A stretch of DNA of 64,000 bases from Candidatus Electrothrix aestuarii (GTDB taxonomy: Bacteria; Desulfobacterota; Desulfobulbia; Desulfobulbales; Desulfobulbaceae), in contig CP159373.1 in the NCBI GenBank assembly GCA_032595685.2, positions 1,943,001 through 2,007,000 on the forward strand, read 5' to 3'. The notes beneath the pieces are model-generated. The model saw nothing but the letters and a program-made list of their open reading frames with translations, ran no database searches and had not been told where the DNA came from. Numbering within the stretch: the stretch's first letter is position 1; the number at the start of each line of letters is the position of its first letter. This document shows, in pieces, positions 7,165 to 61,473 of the stretch. The translations under genes were made by a program, and so were the position numbers.

Positions 7165-10014
7165 CTATTTCAAATTTGATAGCCTGACTTCCAGTTCGGC
7201 TTTATACTTCTCATCAGAGCAGTTCTCAACTGCCTTTTTTAACTCTTTTATTGCGTTATCATAATCCTTTAAAAATTCATGGCACCTGCTCAACAGATCA
7301 TGGTATATCGATATTCTATTGACCGATTTATCATCTGATTGAGCCATTTCAAAGCACTTTTCTGCGCTACTCAAAGCACTCTGATAATTATCGTCTCCAA
7401 GCTCAAGATATGCTTTGGCTTGCTCGTAAAGTAGCCAATGGTTTTGTTGATCTTCGGGAATTTTCTGAATTATCTCTATTGCCTTTTCTGGCTTACTACC
7501 AATATTATAAGCCTTGGCTACACATCTTGCTTCATATGAAGATAATTGTTTTCTTTTTATAATTTCATTAGCAAACGATAGCCCCGCCCCAATTAAACGA
7601 TTTGAAAGGCTTATTTTATTCTCTCGGCCCGCTGCTATTGATGCATTAGTAAGTGATTCACATGCACTTACCCATTGTTTTGACTCTACCAGATTTGGTG
7701 GTATAGCTGTCATTTCAGGAATAGCTTCCGCAATACTTGTACATGTGGCGCTGTGTTTATATCCGAACATAGAAGTAAAAGATACAAACGCCTCATAGAA
7801 CTGATCAAGACCTTCCAATGCAGACATTACGATGACATTTGCTAACTTTTTTACACTTTCATTCCGCTGGTTAATGTCTTGCGTGATCTCACGATATGAT
7901 CTAAGCCTTGCAAAGGCTGCCAACGAGACACGAAGGGGAACAGTAAATGAATCACTCTCAATATCCTGTAAAAGGATAAGCATTGATTTTTCACCAGCTT
8001 TTCGTACATGACTATCAACGTTTCTTAGAGTGCCTAAATGTGCAATTTGTCCATGAGTAGCATGCCACTCAGGTTTTAACTCTAACAAATCATTAAAAGT
8101 TGACAGAGCTTCGCAATATTGTCCGCAACGTCTTTGTGCCTTACCTTTGTGATGTAGAAGTTCTAAACGTTTATCCAGTGTGGGTTCTTCTTGAAGAACC
8201 TTTGTATATATTGCAACACATTCTTTGTAATAAGCTTGCCTACTTTCTATCTCGGGAATTGTGTAAGAATGAATTTCTTTTGCATCCATCACACACTTTA
8301 TTGTTGCCAAACTACTTTTTGTAGTGACCTCTAAGATATGAATATCGTTATGTAAATCTATTTTTTTATTTCCCTCGATTTGCAGAAGGGCATAATGTAT
8401 CCAATCAATTTCTCTGTTGCCACGACGTAAGTGCTCTTGAAAAAGTTGGTCTGAACATAAATGAATTTGGCGAAGAACGCTCGGCGTCATATCACCGTTT
8501 TTTTGTGAAATATAACTTTCAATCGAGGATGCTATAGGCTGACAATCAATATTATCTTGAACGGCAATTGCGATAAGATCGTGTATACGTAGAACGCCAA
8601 TTGTATTTTCCGGCACAAGAATTGAGAGCTTTTGAAGAGTATTGCAATTAAGCACGCCAGCAAAGTGCCTCAAAAATTCAGCATCATGGAAATTTTGACC
8701 TGAGTTTGAAATTATTTTCAAGGCATTAATTGTGCTTTTCTCAAGTCTATTGAGAATCTTTTTGATAATTGATGAGCCGCTATAATCACCAACTAATTCC
8801 GGATCATTTAGTATTTCATCATAGATACCTTCTTTTTCAACGCCCTGCTCAAGCGCCAACTTTTTTGTTATGGATAGAATAAGGGGCGAGAAACTACATT
8901 TTGATATAAACTCACTGCATTTTTGTGAAACGGCGGAGCCTGACTCGCCCAAAATCTTTAAAGCACTTGCCTTTGAAAACCTCGGAATAGATAGATACAG
9001 AGGGCTTTGTGGATCTGAAATCTGTGAGGAAACTAATACTACACCGCCTCTATCGAATCCTGACTTTAGTTCTTCAAAATTGTTATTTTCAAACACTCTA
9101 TTGCAATTGTCTATCACAAGAATAGATTTCTCCGAGTTGAATAATCCTGCGACATTAACAGGCGATCCTCCTCTTGTTCTTTGAACAGAGCTTAATGCTG
9201 AATTTTCCTTCCAGTCCTCCCCGCCAATCCATATATAATTTGTATATTGATTTGAATTTTTGTGTATAAAATCAATGGCCGCCTGGGTCTTGCCAGCACC
9301 ACTTACCCCATAAAGAACGCAAATACAATTTCTCTTTTCGTAATGCGAGGTGATTGCATTTAAAATATTAGGTTCACTAATATACCCCTCACAAACATTA
9401 GGTAACTTTCCAAAGTATTCATAATTATCCAGGTTTTGTGAAAATGTGGGGAAATATTGTTTGTAGAAATCCGCAGAAGAAGGATTATTTAATGACTGTT
9501 CATAAATCCCTTTAGCAAGTTCTCTTGCATCAATAATTATTAGCCGATCACCATACAATTCCCCATTCTCTGTTGCATTGAATTTTGCACGAAACGAAGG
9601 GTTCTCTTCCTGATTACTTATGAGATATATTTTGTCTGGGCCAGAAGGGTTTTTATGGGATATTGCATGAACTATGTCCTTGTTAATTTTCTTATAAACA
9701 GGATTATTATTTTCTCCTGTATAGTCAAAGTATCCTTTCTCAGCACTATATTCACCAACAATGGTAGAATCGTCAGAAAATGTATCGACAGTATAACCAG
9801 ACGGCATATAGTCTTTGTTTATACCATGATGAATAAATGGTTTGCCTTCGCGCAAGGAAATATATTTATGACCAACCAGTTCAATCTCTGTAGCGCCAAG
9901 ACAAGCTATCTCTTCTATTAGTCCTTTTATAATTCTTTTTTTAATATGCTCGAACATTTAATTTCTTCCTAAAATGTATAGCGATTGGTCAAGATATTGG
10001 TTCTGTTGTGCTAA
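7113..10014 (-). mobile_element. Integron gene cassette carrying the STAND NTPase
   Basis: The cassette is bounded by G/TTAGCA (minus strand; box at 10009-10015) and by the attC at 7107-7164. In an integrated cassette, the R' bases at its start must pair with the R'' bases of its own attC. Here GTTAGCA and TGCTAAC are perfectly complementary over seven bases. The content is a single large gene, a 5' leader of about 55 bases with an AGGAAG ribosome-binding site, and the attC. At about 2.9 kb it is unusually long for a cassette. No integron integrase gene is visible in the window, so this is a CALIN-type arrangement. Confidence 0.75.
7165..9957 (-). CDS. STAND-type P-loop NTPase with TPR C-terminus, candidate antiviral sensor
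   Basis: The 930-aa protein has three parts. Residues 1-150 form an N-terminal domain with segments FIHHGINKDY, GYTVDTFSDD and GEYSAEKGYFD; conserved-looking D58, E69 and K74 could be a PD-(D/E)xK-like nuclease centre, but this is a guess. Residues about 190-480 form a STAND/NACHT-like NTPase with Walker A GVSGAGKT at 217-224, Walker B SILVIDNCNR at 278-287 and a sensor strand GGVVLVSSQ at 304-312. The remainder (about 580-930) is helical with TPR-like repeats. This effector-NTPase-sensor order is that of Avs and other STAND defence proteins, which bind phage proteins and then activate the effector. The gene is AT-rich compared with the core genome and is the cargo of an integron cassette. 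Toxicity or defence function is inferred from architecture only. Confidence 0.65.
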   Translation of the reverse strand: MFEHIKKRIIKGLIEEIACLGATEIELVGHKYISLREGKPFIHHGINKDYMPSGYTVDTFSDDSTIVGEYSAEKGYFDYTGENNNPVYKKINKDIVHAISHKNPSGPDKIYLISNQEENPSFRAKFNATENGELYGDRLIIIDARELAKGIYEQSLNNPSSADFYKQYFPTFSQNLDNYEYFGKLPNVCEGYISEPNILNAITSHYEKRNCICVLYGVSGAGKTQAAIDFIHKNSNQYTNYIWIGGEDWKENSALSSVQRTRGGSPVNVAGLFNSEKSILVIDNCNRVFENNNFEELKSGFDRGGVVLVSSQISDPQSPLYLSIPRFSKASALKILGESGSAVSQKCSEFISKCSFSPLILSITKKLALEQGVEKEGIYDEILNDPELVGDYSGSSIIKKILNRLEKSTINALKIISNSGQNFHDAEFLRHFAGVLNCNTLQKLSILVPENTIGVLRIHDLIAIAVQDNIDCQPIASSIESYISQKNGDMTPSVLRQIHLCSDQLFQEHLRRGNREIDWIHYALLQIEGNKKIDLHNDIHILEVTTKSSLATIKCVMDAKEIHSYTIPEIESRQAYYKECVAIYTKVLQEEPTLDKRLELLHHKGKAQRRCGQYCEALSTFNDLLELKPEWHATHGQIAHLGTLRNVDSHVRKAGEKSMLILLQDIESDSFTVPLRVSLAAFARLRSYREITQDINQRNESVKKLANVIVMSALEGLDQFYEAFVSFTSMFGYKHSATCTSIAEAIPEMTAIPPNLVESKQWVSACESLTNASIAAGRENKISLSNRLIGAGLSFANEIIKRKQLSSYEARCVAKAYNIGSKPEKAIEIIQKIPEDQQNHWLLYEQAKAYLELGDDNYQSALSSAEKCFEMAQSDDKSVNRISIYHDLLSRCHEFLKDYDNAIKELKKAVENCSDEKYKAELEVRLSNLK

Positions 10015-10021
10015 CAGTATT

Positions 10022-10131
10022 AATAAGTGGAAACTTTCCATGCTATTGACTGTAATAGATTCCGTGAATTTCCACTTATTCCGATATTGAGGCGAAAAAC
10101 AGGAAAACTTTTCCACTTATCACTTTTCGCC
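10022..10131. repeat. Nested inverted repeats next to the cassette boundary
   Basis: AATAAGTGGAAA at 10022-10033 is the exact reverse complement of TTTCCACTTATT at 10069-10080, and the same TTTTCCACTTAT motif recurs at 10109-10120. The third copy sits inside a second inverted pair, GGCGAAAA at 10091-10098 and TTTTCGCC at 10124-10131, and overlaps GGAAAACTTTTCC. This lies immediately outside the cassette's GTTAGCA box. It could be a degenerate attC of a lost upstream cassette, a recombination or replication site, or operators for the cassette promoter. No gene is present here. Confidence 0.6.
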
Positions 10132-10222
10132 TCCATTTTTCCTCTTATCACGCTATACAGCAGCTAACATGGAACCCGGAACGAGTAACCGAAATTTTAA
10201 GAGCATCGTTTTTCCCGTATCG

Positions 10223-10537
10223 GAAGGTTCTACTCAGCAACACCCGGTTGCTGATAACTAAAAGCTCTTTGACAGGAGGAAATAATCTCCTTTTGATAGC
10301 TACCAACCTTCTGTTAAGAGCAAACAGCTCCTTGTTTATAACAAGCAACCTTCTCTTGTTAACTAACACTCCTTCGTTGGTTATCAAGAACCTTCTGTTG
10401 ATAGCAAACGTTCCTTCGTTAATTAACAAGAACCTTTTGTTTATAGCAAACAACCTTCTGTTAGCAATAAACAACTCCTTGTTGGTTACAAACAACCCTT
10501 TGTTTGCTATCAAAAATCTTCTGTTCCTTTATTGTAA
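10223..10537. repeat. Degenerate tandem array, exact 21-bp period, about 15 units
   Basis: Fifteen consecutive units of exactly 21 bases can be laid out without gaps. Most begin CCTTCTGTT, CTCCTTGTT or TCCTTCGTT and end AGCAAACAA or AACAAGAA, so each unit holds an imperfect dyad TTGTT..AACAA. The first three units are more diverged. Because 21 is a multiple of three, both strands stay open: the plus strand reads a heptad NLLLIAN-like peptide and the minus strand NRRLFAI-like heptads. There is no spacer-repeat structure as in CRISPR. No start codon with a ribosome-binding site supports translation. Confidence 0.85.
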
Positions 10538-10575
10538 TTAACTGATTTCATGTCTACTCAGCTCGTTAGCTTTCC

Positions 10576-11565
10576 TTACTTAAGCCGATACACAAACCCA
10601 CCACCATAGGTTTGCCCGAACAAACGCCCATTCTCTGCAAACACCCAGTTAAAGGCTGTGGGAACGAAATCGCGTGCCACTACGCGCCCTGTACTCACAT
10701 CTATGGCGTAAAGATAGTCGTTTTCACATGACCCACCATCCGAGGAATAAATGATGTCGCCAACAACAGCGAATTTGGCAGAGGCTGTGTTGTATGGCGT
10801 AACCCACTTTACTGTATAGTCTTTCAAACTGAACCGAATCAAGAAGCCGAGCTTGCGTTTGCCGTCGCCGCAGCGAGCCAATGCATCCACGGCAAGAATC
10901 AATGCGTCCTGCAAACGGGCTGATCCTACTATGCCGACATCAGCTATATATCCGCCTGTATCCCCGGTACTCAAGCCGTTACGACTGGATAACTCAATTC
11001 GGAAGATATTGTGGACTCTCAGGTCCTCGTCAATGATAGCCGCGACGATTTCTGTTTCAGCACCTTGGGGAAAGCGAGGCGCAACGTGAATAATATATAA
11101 TCCATCACCCAGGCTTTCTAAATATAAAAAAGGATTGGAAATGTCAGTTGCAAGAAAAGACGAAGCGTGTTCGGCAATCGCTTCCTTGAGACGCTGACGA
11201 AAAGACGGGTTACCAAGAGCGCATCTATCAAAATGATCCATCCGACATATATCCCATTTATCAGCGGAAAAGTCCGTCTCTGGATAGCTTTCAGCAAAAT
11301 CTTCAATATCATGGAGATAGTTGTTTTCTACCGCTAAGCCGATATCACGTTGCGGACCTGGATTTTTTAGCGGTTTAATGTCTTGAATGATAGGGATTTG
11401 CTGGATGAGTTGAGCGTCTTTAGGTTGGTCATTGCGCAGCGTTGAGGCAGCTTGGAGAAAAGTTGAAAAACTTGTGAGGTTGTATGCATGGCTTTCGAGG
11501 TCAGTACTCAAAAGGCTCAGGAAGAAGAGGGACAAAGCTACTCGAACGGTATAAAACATTTTCAT
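10576..11565 (-). CDS. Secreted protein of unknown function, possible beta-propeller
   Basis: The 329-aa protein begins with a signal peptide (MKMFYTVRVALSLFFLSLLS, cleavage after about residue 27). The C-terminal half has repeated short strands that read like blades of a beta-propeller: GDIIYSSDGGSCENDYLYAI, DVSTGRVVARDFV and AENGRLFGQTYGGGFVYRL, similar in style to PQQ- or WD-type repeats. The middle has a helical segment with cysteines (DICRMDHFDRCALG) and two further cysteines. I do not recognise a named family. It is the only gene between the 21-bp array and the divergent ettA gene, and its stop lies 39 bases from the array. Confidence 0.5.
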   Translation of the reverse strand: MKMFYTVRVALSLFFLSLLSTDLESHAYNLTSFSTFLQAASTLRNDQPKDAQLIQQIPIIQDIKPLKNPGPQRDIGLAVENNYLHDIEDFAESYPETDFSADKWDICRMDHFDRCALGNPSFRQRLKEAIAEHASSFLATDISNPFLYLESLGDGLYIIHVAPRFPQGAETEIVAAIIDEDLRVHNIFRIELSSRNGLSTGDTGGYIADVGIVGSARLQDALILAVDALARCGDGKRKLGFLIRFSLKDYTVKWVTPYNTASAKFAVVGDIIYSSDGGSCENDYLYAIDVSTGRVVARDFVPTAFNWVFAENGRLFGQTYGGGFVYRLK

Positions 11566-48968: not shown

Positions 48969-49574
48969 CTACAGTACCGCTGCCACAGTATTGCTCGGTT
49001 CACTCTCACCGGCCTTATTCACCGCGATGACCCGATATTCGTGCTCTTTGCCGCGCTCCTGATTATTCAGGATGATCTCGGTTTCCAGGGCCGTGCCGAC
49101 CATCATCCATTCTCCTTCAGGCACTTCCCGCCGCTCCACCCGGTAAAAAGCCACCTTGCCGCCGTCCACTGGCTTTTTCCAGTCCAGAGTGATCCGGCCC
49201 GGCCCTTCTTTCGGGGCCTCCAACATCCTGGGCTGGCCCGGAGCCTGCAAGGGGGTCGGCTCCGCCCTGCCGCTCCAGCCGAGAGCAACCAGTTTGGCGT
49301 CATTGCCGTGTACTGCGTCTTCGGCATAATTCAGAACGCTCTTTGCTGCGGAGATCATTTCGTTATTCCCGGCCTGCTTGGCCTCGGTGGCCTGCTGCGC
49401 AGCTGCCTGAGCCGCAACCTGTTCATCCTCCAGTGTGATGGAGTTATCCAGGAGGGTCTGGAGTTGTGCCGGAGTGAAAGGAGGGTTAGGAAAGTCGGGA
49501 TTGTCTGTAAGCCCGGCGATGATCTTCTGTACCAACGTTCTGATGTCCGCTTCACGGGTGGGAAAACGTGCCAT
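48969..49574 (-). CDS. Fibronectin type III domain protein
   Basis: The 201-aa protein begins MARFPTREADIRTLVQKIIAG and has an N-terminal helical half with an alanine-rich segment (QVAAQAAAQQATEAKQAGNN) and a C-terminal Fn3 domain: PGRITLDWKKPVDGGKVAFY, RVERREVPEGEWMMVGTALETE and EHEYRVIAVNKAGESEPSNT. No signal peptide is visible. Such two-part proteins occur in several Desulfobulbales-like genomes, but their role is unknown. The 21-bp array at 49662 lies 88 bases upstream of its start. The start has a GGAGG site. Confidence 0.8.
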   Translation of the reverse strand: MARFPTREADIRTLVQKIIAGLTDNPDFPNPPFTPAQLQTLLDNSITLEDEQVAAQAAAQQATEAKQAGNNEMISAAKSVLNYAEDAVHGNDAKLVALGWSGRAEPTPLQAPGQPRMLEAPKEGPGRITLDWKKPVDGGKVAFYRVERREVPEGEWMMVGTALETEIILNNQERGKEHEYRVIAVNKAGESEPSNTVAAVL

Positions 49575-49661
49575 GATAACCTCCTGTGCTGTTTTAATTG
49601 ATTTTTTTACTGATTAAAACACTCCGTTCTTTTTTGCAATTACTCTGTTTCACCGTTCATA

Positions 49662-49934
49662 CGCCTCATACGAAGCTTCGAATGGCTCGTTTGATGCTTT
49701 AAATGCCTCTTATGAAGCATCGAATGCCTCATTTCATGCTTCAAACGTCACGTTTTAAACTTCAAATGCCTTACATGAAGCTTCGAATGCCACGTTTGAA
49801 GTATCGAAGGGCTCATTTGATGTTTAAAATGCCTCATTCCAAGCTTCATATACGACGTTTTAAGCTTTGAATGACCCTTATGAAGCGTCGAATGCCTCAT
49901 TGCAACCTTCAAACGTCACGTTGTACCTTCCGTA
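49662..49934. repeat. Second degenerate tandem array, exact 21-bp period, 13 units
   Basis: Thirteen consecutive 21-base units align without gaps. A common unit reads TGCCTCATTTGAAGCTTCG then AA. Each carries the palindromes GAAGCTTC or TTCGAA in changing forms. The consensus differs from the array at 10223, but the period is the same. The frame is not open, so the period is not explained by a peptide. There are no CRISPR-like identical repeats or unique spacers. Confidence 0.85.
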
Positions 49935-50433
49935 TTCCCTGGTGCGGATAGGCAACGGGGCATGATCAACCGCTCCCGGAAAACTTTTGCCTGCATACAG
50001 CAGTTTTTTTCAGTTAGCTGAATGGAATTATGAACAAGTATCTTATGTTGCGTGAAATTTCAAGGGGAAACAGCTTGATTTTCTGTTTTTTCTTTTCTTG
50101 TGGGAAAGTCTGCAATGAAGATTCAGAGGGAGCGGTATTTGAACCAGCAACTCAGCGCTGTAACCCGCATGGTTGCGCGGTTTGAGAATGGGGTGTGATG
50201 CAGGGATGTATATTTTTTCTCCCCCTGTTTACGGCGTGAGAGGCCGTGAAAAATGACCACTCCAGGCAACAATAGACCATTTTAGACGGTTTTAAATGGT
50301 CTGAGTCGCACCAGTCGCACAAAACCGGCCCTCTTACGGCCCTCTTACGGCCCTCCAAACCCGCTTTTTGCCCATTTTTCCATTTTTGGCCGTCATGAGC
50401 GCCGTCGTCCTCTGTGAATGGTTATTACGTCAA
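49935..50433. other. Non-coding region
   Basis: About 500 bases with no supported gene. It holds the first copy of the ~70-bp direct repeat (50128-50199) and GC-rich direct repeats of CCTCTTACGGCC around 50330-50355. I see no promoter that I would defend. Confidence 0.5.
50128..50199. repeat. Direct repeat copy A (tRNA-like fragment)
   Basis: This copy aligns with 51110-51180. The shared core is TGCGCGGTTTGAGAATGG, followed by GTGTGAT, and the left part of each reads like a T-arm on the minus strand (GGTTCAAAT or GGTTCGAAT). The pair brackets the thioesterase gene at 50434-50964. Confidence 0.7.
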
Positions 50434-61375: not shown

Positions 61376-61473
61376 TGGCGGAAGTGCATGGGAATCGAAC
61401 CCACCTGCCGAGCTATTCACCCGGCACACCGGATTTGAAGTCCGGGAGGGCCACCAGTGCCCTTTCCACTTCC
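61376..61473 (-). tRNA. selC: tRNA-Sec (anticodon UCA)
   Basis: On the minus strand a long tRNA is visible. The acceptor GGAAGTG pairs with CACTTCC and is followed by GCCA, so the CCA end is encoded. The anticodon arm reads CCGGA-CTTCAAA-TCCGG with anticodon TCA. A long variable arm lies between, TGCCGGG..CTCGGCA, and the T-loop is GGGTTCGATTCCC. A length of about 95 bases before CCA is typical for selenocysteine tRNA. It reads UGA codons as selenocysteine together with SelA/B/D, none of which is in the window. Confidence 0.93.

Follow-up and report, generated by a model that had tools for sequence, protein, structure and literature searches.

A 21-base repeat array in Candidatus Electrothrix as a candidate set of phased DNA sites

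How can a tandem array hold its 21-base period while the letters of its units drift, and is that period read as protein, as RNA or as DNA? The question is raised by positions 10223-10537 of the window, by which we mean the whole 64,000-nucleotide stretch analyzed here; it lies within one contig of 5,110,699 bases from Candidatus Electrothrix, a genus of cable bacteria. The original prediction described fifteen drifting 21-base units, and the period itself holds: self-identity over 10223-10537 is 0.60 at lag 42, 0.53 at lag 63 and 0.51 at lag 21, with the best of these three lags at or below 0.366 in all 2,000 base-shuffled copies. Tandem Repeats Finder likewise reported arrays of period 42 and 21. 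The number of units has to be lowered, because 10223-10243 falls outside the pattern and the last row is incomplete, which leaves thirteen units in phase at 10244-10516 on the minus strand (the W1 array). This strand is the counterpart of the sense strand of a linked protein gene in relatives. A unit profile called 12 of the 13 unit positions, and every step was 21 or 42. The dyad TTGTT..AACAA had been ascribed to every unit, but in its exact form it is present in three of the fifteen printed rows (10328, 10433 and 10475).

Phase retention and coding potential

In its own genome W1 matches seven further places at E <1e-7, two of them within one array; matches are found in seven of the eight genomes of the genus and in none of the 29 genomes examined from elsewhere in the order. 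We collected 27 W1-type arrays; nine precede a gene of ~127 codons, which is absent beside the remaining 18 (some of these at contig ends). W1 itself lacks this gene. When units were tracked through the 27 arrays with steps of 11 to 31 permitted and penalized, four of 369 unit steps were not 21, all four at array ends, while the 349 units depart from the consensus at a mean of 5.9 positions. An earlier unit pass had placed 3-base offsets at the ends of L026 and L038 and other offsets at the ends of L006, L021 and L089. For this reason L026 and L038 were excluded from the stop, covariation and unit-order analyses described below, and four arrays were trimmed. One-base insertions and deletions are present in the neighboring head sequence.

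The phase is thus never broken inside these arrays over 369 steps, which supports the proposal that it is under selection. Repeat renewal, which had been offered alongside selection, also occurs. Cheap-gap pairwise alignments of related arrays contain gaps that are mostly multiples of 21 bases (21n), and the few small gaps may be alignment effects. Some arrays are near-homogeneous (L071:1874-2230 and L072:1778-2176, both in genome G003), which points to recent growth by 21 or 42 bases at a time. Phase slips are seen in other phyla, where L212, L180, L204 and L231 peak at lags 64, 85, 83 and 85. The 21-base phase rule is strong, not absolute.

Both strands had been described as open in heptad frames, and W1 does contain one such frame per strand, a 121-aa frame on the minus strand (10148-10513) and a 97-aa frame on the plus strand (10248-10541). 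Each opens with TTG and neither contains an ATG; from the coordinates, their third codon positions coincide. The minus-strand frame reads as the heptad LFAINRR and is free of stops in 25 of the 27 W1-type arrays, with one stop each, at an end, in L006 and L071. Shuffling columns among units gave 2.2 expected stops against 0 seen (P 0.07; 25 arrays, 349 units), a count made with array ends trimmed, so that the single stops of L006 and L071 drop out.

A gene for a heptad-repeat protein is expected to accumulate differences at third codon positions. Five disjoint W1-type pairs (L088/L073, L078/L079, L006/L076, L080/L081 and L022/L026) differ 33/35/36 times at the three codon positions (P 0.93 for uniformity), or 32/34/33 times after realignment with cheaper gaps. 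For 13 further pairs of gene-linked arrays the sorted phase sums are 154/121/84, against 151.5/118.6/88.9 expected without a codon signal (P 0.35); two of these pairs lean to one codon position (L221/L223, 10/6/18, P 0.04; L112/L115, 7/10/18, P 0.06). The genes belonging to the same 13 pairs gave 46/42/167, and the control genes gave 31/15/133 (integrase), 4/3/14, 5/3/19, 14/14/41 (127-aa gene). The third-position excess is therefore strong in the control genes and absent from the arrays. Stops interrupt every sense frame in 40 of 88 gene-linked arrays. The other 48 have an open sense frame, where column permutation gives 38.5 (P 0.005). Openness on both strands is seen in 36, where permutation gives 24.6 and reached this count in 0 of 200 runs; the 88 arrays are not independent. 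We tentatively ascribe the excess of both-strand openness to two candidate causes, dyad symmetry and shared descent. Given the even codon-position differences and the stops in many gene-linked arrays, translation of the heptad frames was rejected.

Linkage of the arrays to a small protein family

The 127-aa protein encoded beside some of the arrays belongs to a family with the conserved end YGkDSNEYEMAGGtRxSD. It has no NCBIfam match and no Pfam match above cut-off, and a comparison of 20 family members with Pfam and PADLOC gave scattered weak matches only. The main helices of its AlphaFold2 model (mean pLDDT 84, pTM 0.54) span residues 9-24 and 36-89, and fold searches with this model returned no solved-structure match at E<=0.001. 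The best solved-structure profile match, to a DARPin (E 4.7e-8), was discarded as spurious, being the sum of several 4-bit matches to DARPin repeats. A genome scan for the family found 31 loci in four phyla, with hosts among the Desulfobulbaceae (Electrothrix, Electronema and others), the Acidobacteriota (Acidobacteria, Pyrinomonadaceae), the Bacteroidota (Chitinophagaceae, Chitinophagales, Crocinitomicaceae) and the cyanobacteria. One plasmid record, from Kovacikia, carries a member, none was found in phages, and in a draw of 395 genomes of the phylum the family occurs in one, the window's own.

We scored the 800 bases upstream of each gene match for an array, defined as an identity of at least 0.5 in 100 bases at a lag of 21n that is at least 0.06 above any other lag, a definition chosen after the first cases had been seen. 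A 21n array lies upstream of 86 of 96 copies, many of them related as orthologs or paralogs and so not independent (a single broken gene accounts for both L118 and L120): 26 of 27 in Electrothrix and 60 of 69 in 15 further genomes, each of which has at least one copy with such an array. Cultured cyanobacterial carriers of the gene-array pair include Fischerella sp. PCC 9431 and a Leptolyngbya. The ten misses include L212 and L180, whose arrays slip in phase. Among the controls, 1 of 54 downstream regions and 0 of 141 far tiles of the genome-scan loci were positive; in the window itself 3 of 79 tiles were positive, two of them from W1 and the third from a second array, W2. The test covered all 27 Electrothrix matches and 69 of 85 in the further genomes. 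The exclusions were L188, whose upstream region is too short, 15 matches that are weak, fragmentary or close to a contig start, and three weak ones in the window's own genome.

Across the 88 gene-linked arrays, identity exceeds that expected from composition by 0.30, 0.33 and 0.35 at lags 21, 42 and 63, with no excess, and slightly negative values, at lags 7, 10 and 11 (-0.01 at lag 7). The dominant period is 21 in 38 arrays, 42 in 30 and 63 in 20, and mean G+C of the arrays ranges by genome from 0.26 to 0.59. No trinucleotide is fixed in phase throughout, the commonest being AAG (23/88), GTT (21/88) and AAC (16/88). With AAC phase-fixed in only these 16 arrays, an AAC (+9) TTY motif first seen by eye is not universal and was dropped.

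In close pairs the unit sequence follows the gene subfamily. Across families of copies the unit sequence varies, whereas the period is constant. L181/L194 is a clear exception, with genes 94% identical and a unit identity of 0.38 between the arrays as opposed to 0.65 within them; L184/L199 is a milder one (0.52 between, 0.64 within). The arrays of L113 and L114, from two genomes, differ at 46 of 339 positions and their genes at one, while in L095/L096 and L101/L103 the array changes more slowly than the gene. Neighbors are kept on both sides of the array in L004/L039; L113 and L114 differ beyond the far end of the array and not on the gene side.

The second array, W2 (49656-49928, minus strand), has a 21-base unit unlike that of W1 and stops in all six frames. 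Directly downstream in the sense direction is the gene for a 201-aa protein with a C-terminal fibronectin type III domain (48969-49574, minus strand), for which no plasmid match was found. In the genus, 14 of 21 tested copies of the W2-type gene have an upstream 21n array, including all 13 copies of at least 59% identity with the start present; the test took 21 of 28 matches, leaving out six that lack the gene start and L247, a 62-residue fragment. The 127-aa family may be homologous to the N-terminal part of the W2 protein; the two align over 57 columns with an hhalign probability of 10% and E 0.003. A perfect 11-base repeat, CGGCCCTCTTA, is present in 2.7 copies near W2 (50326-50355). Further along the window there is a tRNA-Sec gene on the minus strand (61380-61473).

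Folding, surroundings and competing explanations

The folding z score of W1 is -4.55 for the minus and -8.73 for the plus strand. For the 88 arrays, the mean z is -3.50 (sense) and -3.89 (antisense) against dinucleotide shuffles and -2.40 and -2.52 against column-permuted copies, with a rank P<=0.034 against column permutation in 59% (sense) and 64% (antisense) of them. The two strands gain about equally, leaving no sense-strand advantage. Shuffling the order of units alters folding little (mean z between -0.15 and -0.53 for 25 W1-type and 45 other arrays), and specific long-range hairpins between units were rejected as a general feature on this ground; for W1 itself the order matters somewhat (mean z -1.46). 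Covariation within the unit dyad is weak. Such strand-balanced, order-insensitive folding fits dyad-like units better than one particular RNA structure. Together with the missing codon-position signal and the 40 of 88 arrays that lack an open sense frame, it supports the suggestion that the array acts as nucleic acid rather than as protein.

The array end lies a median of 163.5 bases upstream of the ORF match. In 13 of 43 rows (Electrothrix, Electronema and relatives), a scan running from 60 bases before the array end to the ORF located a TTGACA downstream of the array and 93-95 bases short of the ORF. The gap between array and ORF measures 31-52 bases at 12 other loci and contains AGGAGG at 11 of them, so the array is possibly a transcribed leader there; at three of these (L164, L179 and L190) TTGAC[AG] was seen by eye upstream of the array. 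In a scan with a promoter consensus, W2 had one site nearby whereas W1 and L114 had none, a yield not above that of shuffled sequence. At gathering score the only Rfam match in the window is tRNA-Sec, and matches over the array are below threshold.

W1 is joined to an element of ~210 bases that we call the head (10013-10222, minus strand). It has two inverted repeats, read from the sequence (10022-10033/10069-10080 and 10089-10098/10124-10133). Its outer edge, at 10013, is sharp and reads ..ACTGTT on the minus strand, and GCTAACATGGAA (10163-10174) is a landmark on its inner side. The first gene past the head encodes 930 aa with TPR matches (7165-9957, minus strand); on the other side of the array, a 329-aa gene without a Pfam or NCBIfam match (10576-11565, minus strand) stops ~60 bases upstream of W1 in the minus-strand sense. 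The head has dispersed matches in all eight genus genomes (85 matches, some of them pieces of one copy), and its orientation relative to the array is identical in all 17 loci holding both. In W1 and six others (L077-L082) the two are adjacent or a few bases apart; elsewhere they are separated by the 127-aa gene or by a gene for an integron integrase. The outer edge stays sharp in unlike contexts, and the sequence past the head differs even where the array side is common (the window and L077; L095/L096). At the orthologous place in genome G007 (L077), the head is followed by a different gene than the 930-aa gene of the window.

A Pfam scan of 10 of the 13 genes downstream of gene-less arrays found GmrSD, SnoaL-like, DMP19, ankyrin, GGDEF and C5 methylase matches above the cut-off, TPR at the cut-off (the 930-aa gene), PLD-like and HsdR-like matches below it, and one gene without a match; PADLOC called a type IIG restriction enzyme at L004. 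Judged by these scans, the neighbors of gene-less arrays are varied and partly defense-related. Near-full copies of the integron integrase are present in three of the eight genus genomes (L085:6867-7871, L074:1221-2225 and L091:1501-2505, assigned to TIGR02249 by L085). In G001 (L074) the gene is flanked by the head and a 21-base array; in G000 (L085) it is flanked by a 22-base remnant of the head and an array. In L074 the landmark GCTAACATGGAA at the inner end of the head contains the start codon of the integrase, a role that it may also have for other genes. The core motif of integrons is GTTRRRY/RYYYAAC; by eye, ..ACTGTT is conserved at the head edge and the next bases are variable.

Four other explanations were weighed on this evidence. 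The array could be an RNA element, transcribed as the leader of the small-protein gene or as the 3' tail of the preceding gene, whose repeated hairpins control expression or bind a protein. The strong folding of W1 and of the 88 arrays argues for it, as do the 12 loci with a short gap, with their AGGAGG (in 11) and upstream TTGAC[AG] (in three), and the effect of unit order in W1. We nevertheless regard it as rather unlikely: neither a sense-strand advantage nor, over the 25 W1-type and 45 other arrays, much dependence on unit order is seen, TTGACA lies between array and ORF in 13 of 43 rows, promoter-like sites near W1, L114 and W2 are no more frequent than in shuffles, nothing in the window except tRNA-Sec reaches the Rfam gathering score, and a period of 21.0 is a better match to B-DNA than to A-form RNA. 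Array and head might instead mark the fixed border of a site of accessory-gene exchange, perhaps served by the integron-type integrase. This would account for the sharp outer edge in unlike contexts, for a common array side with different sequence beyond the head (the window and L077; L095/L096), for restriction or methylation genes among those beyond gene-less arrays, and for the TIGR02249 genes between head or head remnant and array in L074 and L085. It is made quite improbable by the apparent lack of a consistent GTTRRRY/RYYYAAC core at the edge (by eye), by the restriction of full integrase copies to three of eight genus genomes, the head having been searched for within the genus, and by array pairs that keep the same neighbors on both sides (L004/L039) or differ on the far side of the array (L113/L114).

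That a neutral minisatellite expands in 21-base steps without any selected function agrees with length changes of mostly 21n and with the near-homogeneous L071 and L072. Diverged units would then be expected to collect single-base indels, which are found in the head and not inside W1-type arrays, and a neutral repeat is not expected to accompany one gene family in four phyla; we hold this explanation to be very doubtful. A coding function, in which the minus-strand frame yields a coiled-coil-like heptad peptide (LFAINRR), is the least credible and can be given hardly any weight. The frame is stop-free in 25 of 27 W1-type arrays, open frames are in excess in the sense direction (48/88 against 38.5) and on both strands (36 against 24.6) among arrays that are not independent, and two of 13 pairs lean to one codon position (P 0.04 and 0.06). 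Against this stand the absence of an overall third-position excess, a stop depletion close to what column composition gives (0 against 2.2, P 0.07, ends trimmed), the 40 of 88 arrays with stops in all sense frames, the stops of W2 in all six frames and the lack of an ATG in W1.

There is, in our judgment, about an even chance that W1 works in cis, without coding for anything, as a series of 21-base dyad-like sites set in helical phase, 21 bases being two turns of B-DNA. We infer such sites from the absence of any sign of coding selection combined with the maintained 21-base step. W1 itself is best read as a gene-less representative of the arrays that elsewhere precede the genes of a small helical protein family. 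Many sites on one face of the helix would be filled by a protein, most likely a dimer, and the resulting extended complex would control or mark the gene next to it; selection would keep the spacing, and the letters of the units may drift along with the gene subfamily. That DNA rather than RNA is the acting form, that protein occupies it and that the neighbor is affected are what we infer from the sequences. Phase, the lack of a codon signal, gene linkage, dyad content and the TTGACA downstream of the array count for the DNA-site reading. Weak covariation, the 12 leader-like loci, L181/L194, the 18 of 27 W1-type arrays without the gene, the lack of a universally fixed trinucleotide and the excess of arrays open on both strands count against it.

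More tentatively, family and array may form a two-part module, patchy over at least four phyla, that consists of the small helical protein (..YGkDSNEYEMAGGtR.Sd..) and the upstream array, the latter conserved in geometry (21-base units, often in twos or threes) and not in sequence, as a phased scaffold read by its spacing. A period kept across phyla while the sequence changes, beside one unstudied family, would represent a conserved system that is invisible to sequence-based annotation. The arrays permit a direct test of DNA spacing itself as a selected signal and offer a way into a protein family that cable bacteria, cyanobacteria, Acidobacteriota and Bacteroidota carry in multiple copies.

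Comparison with known systems

A literature search, with most subscription papers outside its scope, found no recognized description of the arrays or of the array-gene pairing. Several known systems are similar in part. The integrase genes and the sharp, variable edge beside some heads recall the attI/attC sites of integrons; here, however, no attC-like core was seen by eye, and the integrase is present in three of eight genus genomes. Whereas CRISPR arrays have near-identical repeats with unique spacers, the units described here are contiguous and diverged. Type III toxin-antitoxin systems (ToxIN) have tandem repeats upstream of a small-protein gene, an arrangement also found here, but the partner in our case is predicted to be helical, the units are diverged and folding has no sense-strand advantage; Pfam, NCBIfam and PADLOC gave no match to a ToxN/AbiQ-type endoribonuclease downstream of the repeats.

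Iterons, the direct repeats of 17-22 bases beside the rep gene at plasmid origins, are similar in that they too are direct repeats of about two helical turns beside a protein gene. The present arrays differ in occupying many chromosomal loci per genome, with a unit sequence that varies between loci, and in having a 127-aa partner without an initiator family match in NCBIfam or Pfam. The likeness to iterons and to phased operators is one of possible working, not of membership.

The excerpts of three papers (PMC10580974, PMC10926707 and PMC10030654) deal with protein repeats, insertion sequences, long identical repeats and repeats that cause assembly problems, and do not mention these arrays. 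The TAACTGA heptamer arrays of Beggiatoaceae, cyanobacteria and Bacteroidetes, as described in excerpts of PMC4679880, consist of one fixed 7-base unit, are intergenic, often lie before start codons and on one strand read as a repeating 7-residue peptide. Judged by those excerpts, they share with the arrays reported here the intergenic direct repeats, the frequent position ahead of start codons, the 7-residue reading on one strand and a patchy distribution over partly the same phyla (PMC4679880), whereas our arrays have 21-base varying units, no lag-7 signal (-0.01) and a linked protein family. In these respects the heptamer work (PMC4679880, in excerpt) is the nearest description that the literature search found, with a different unit.
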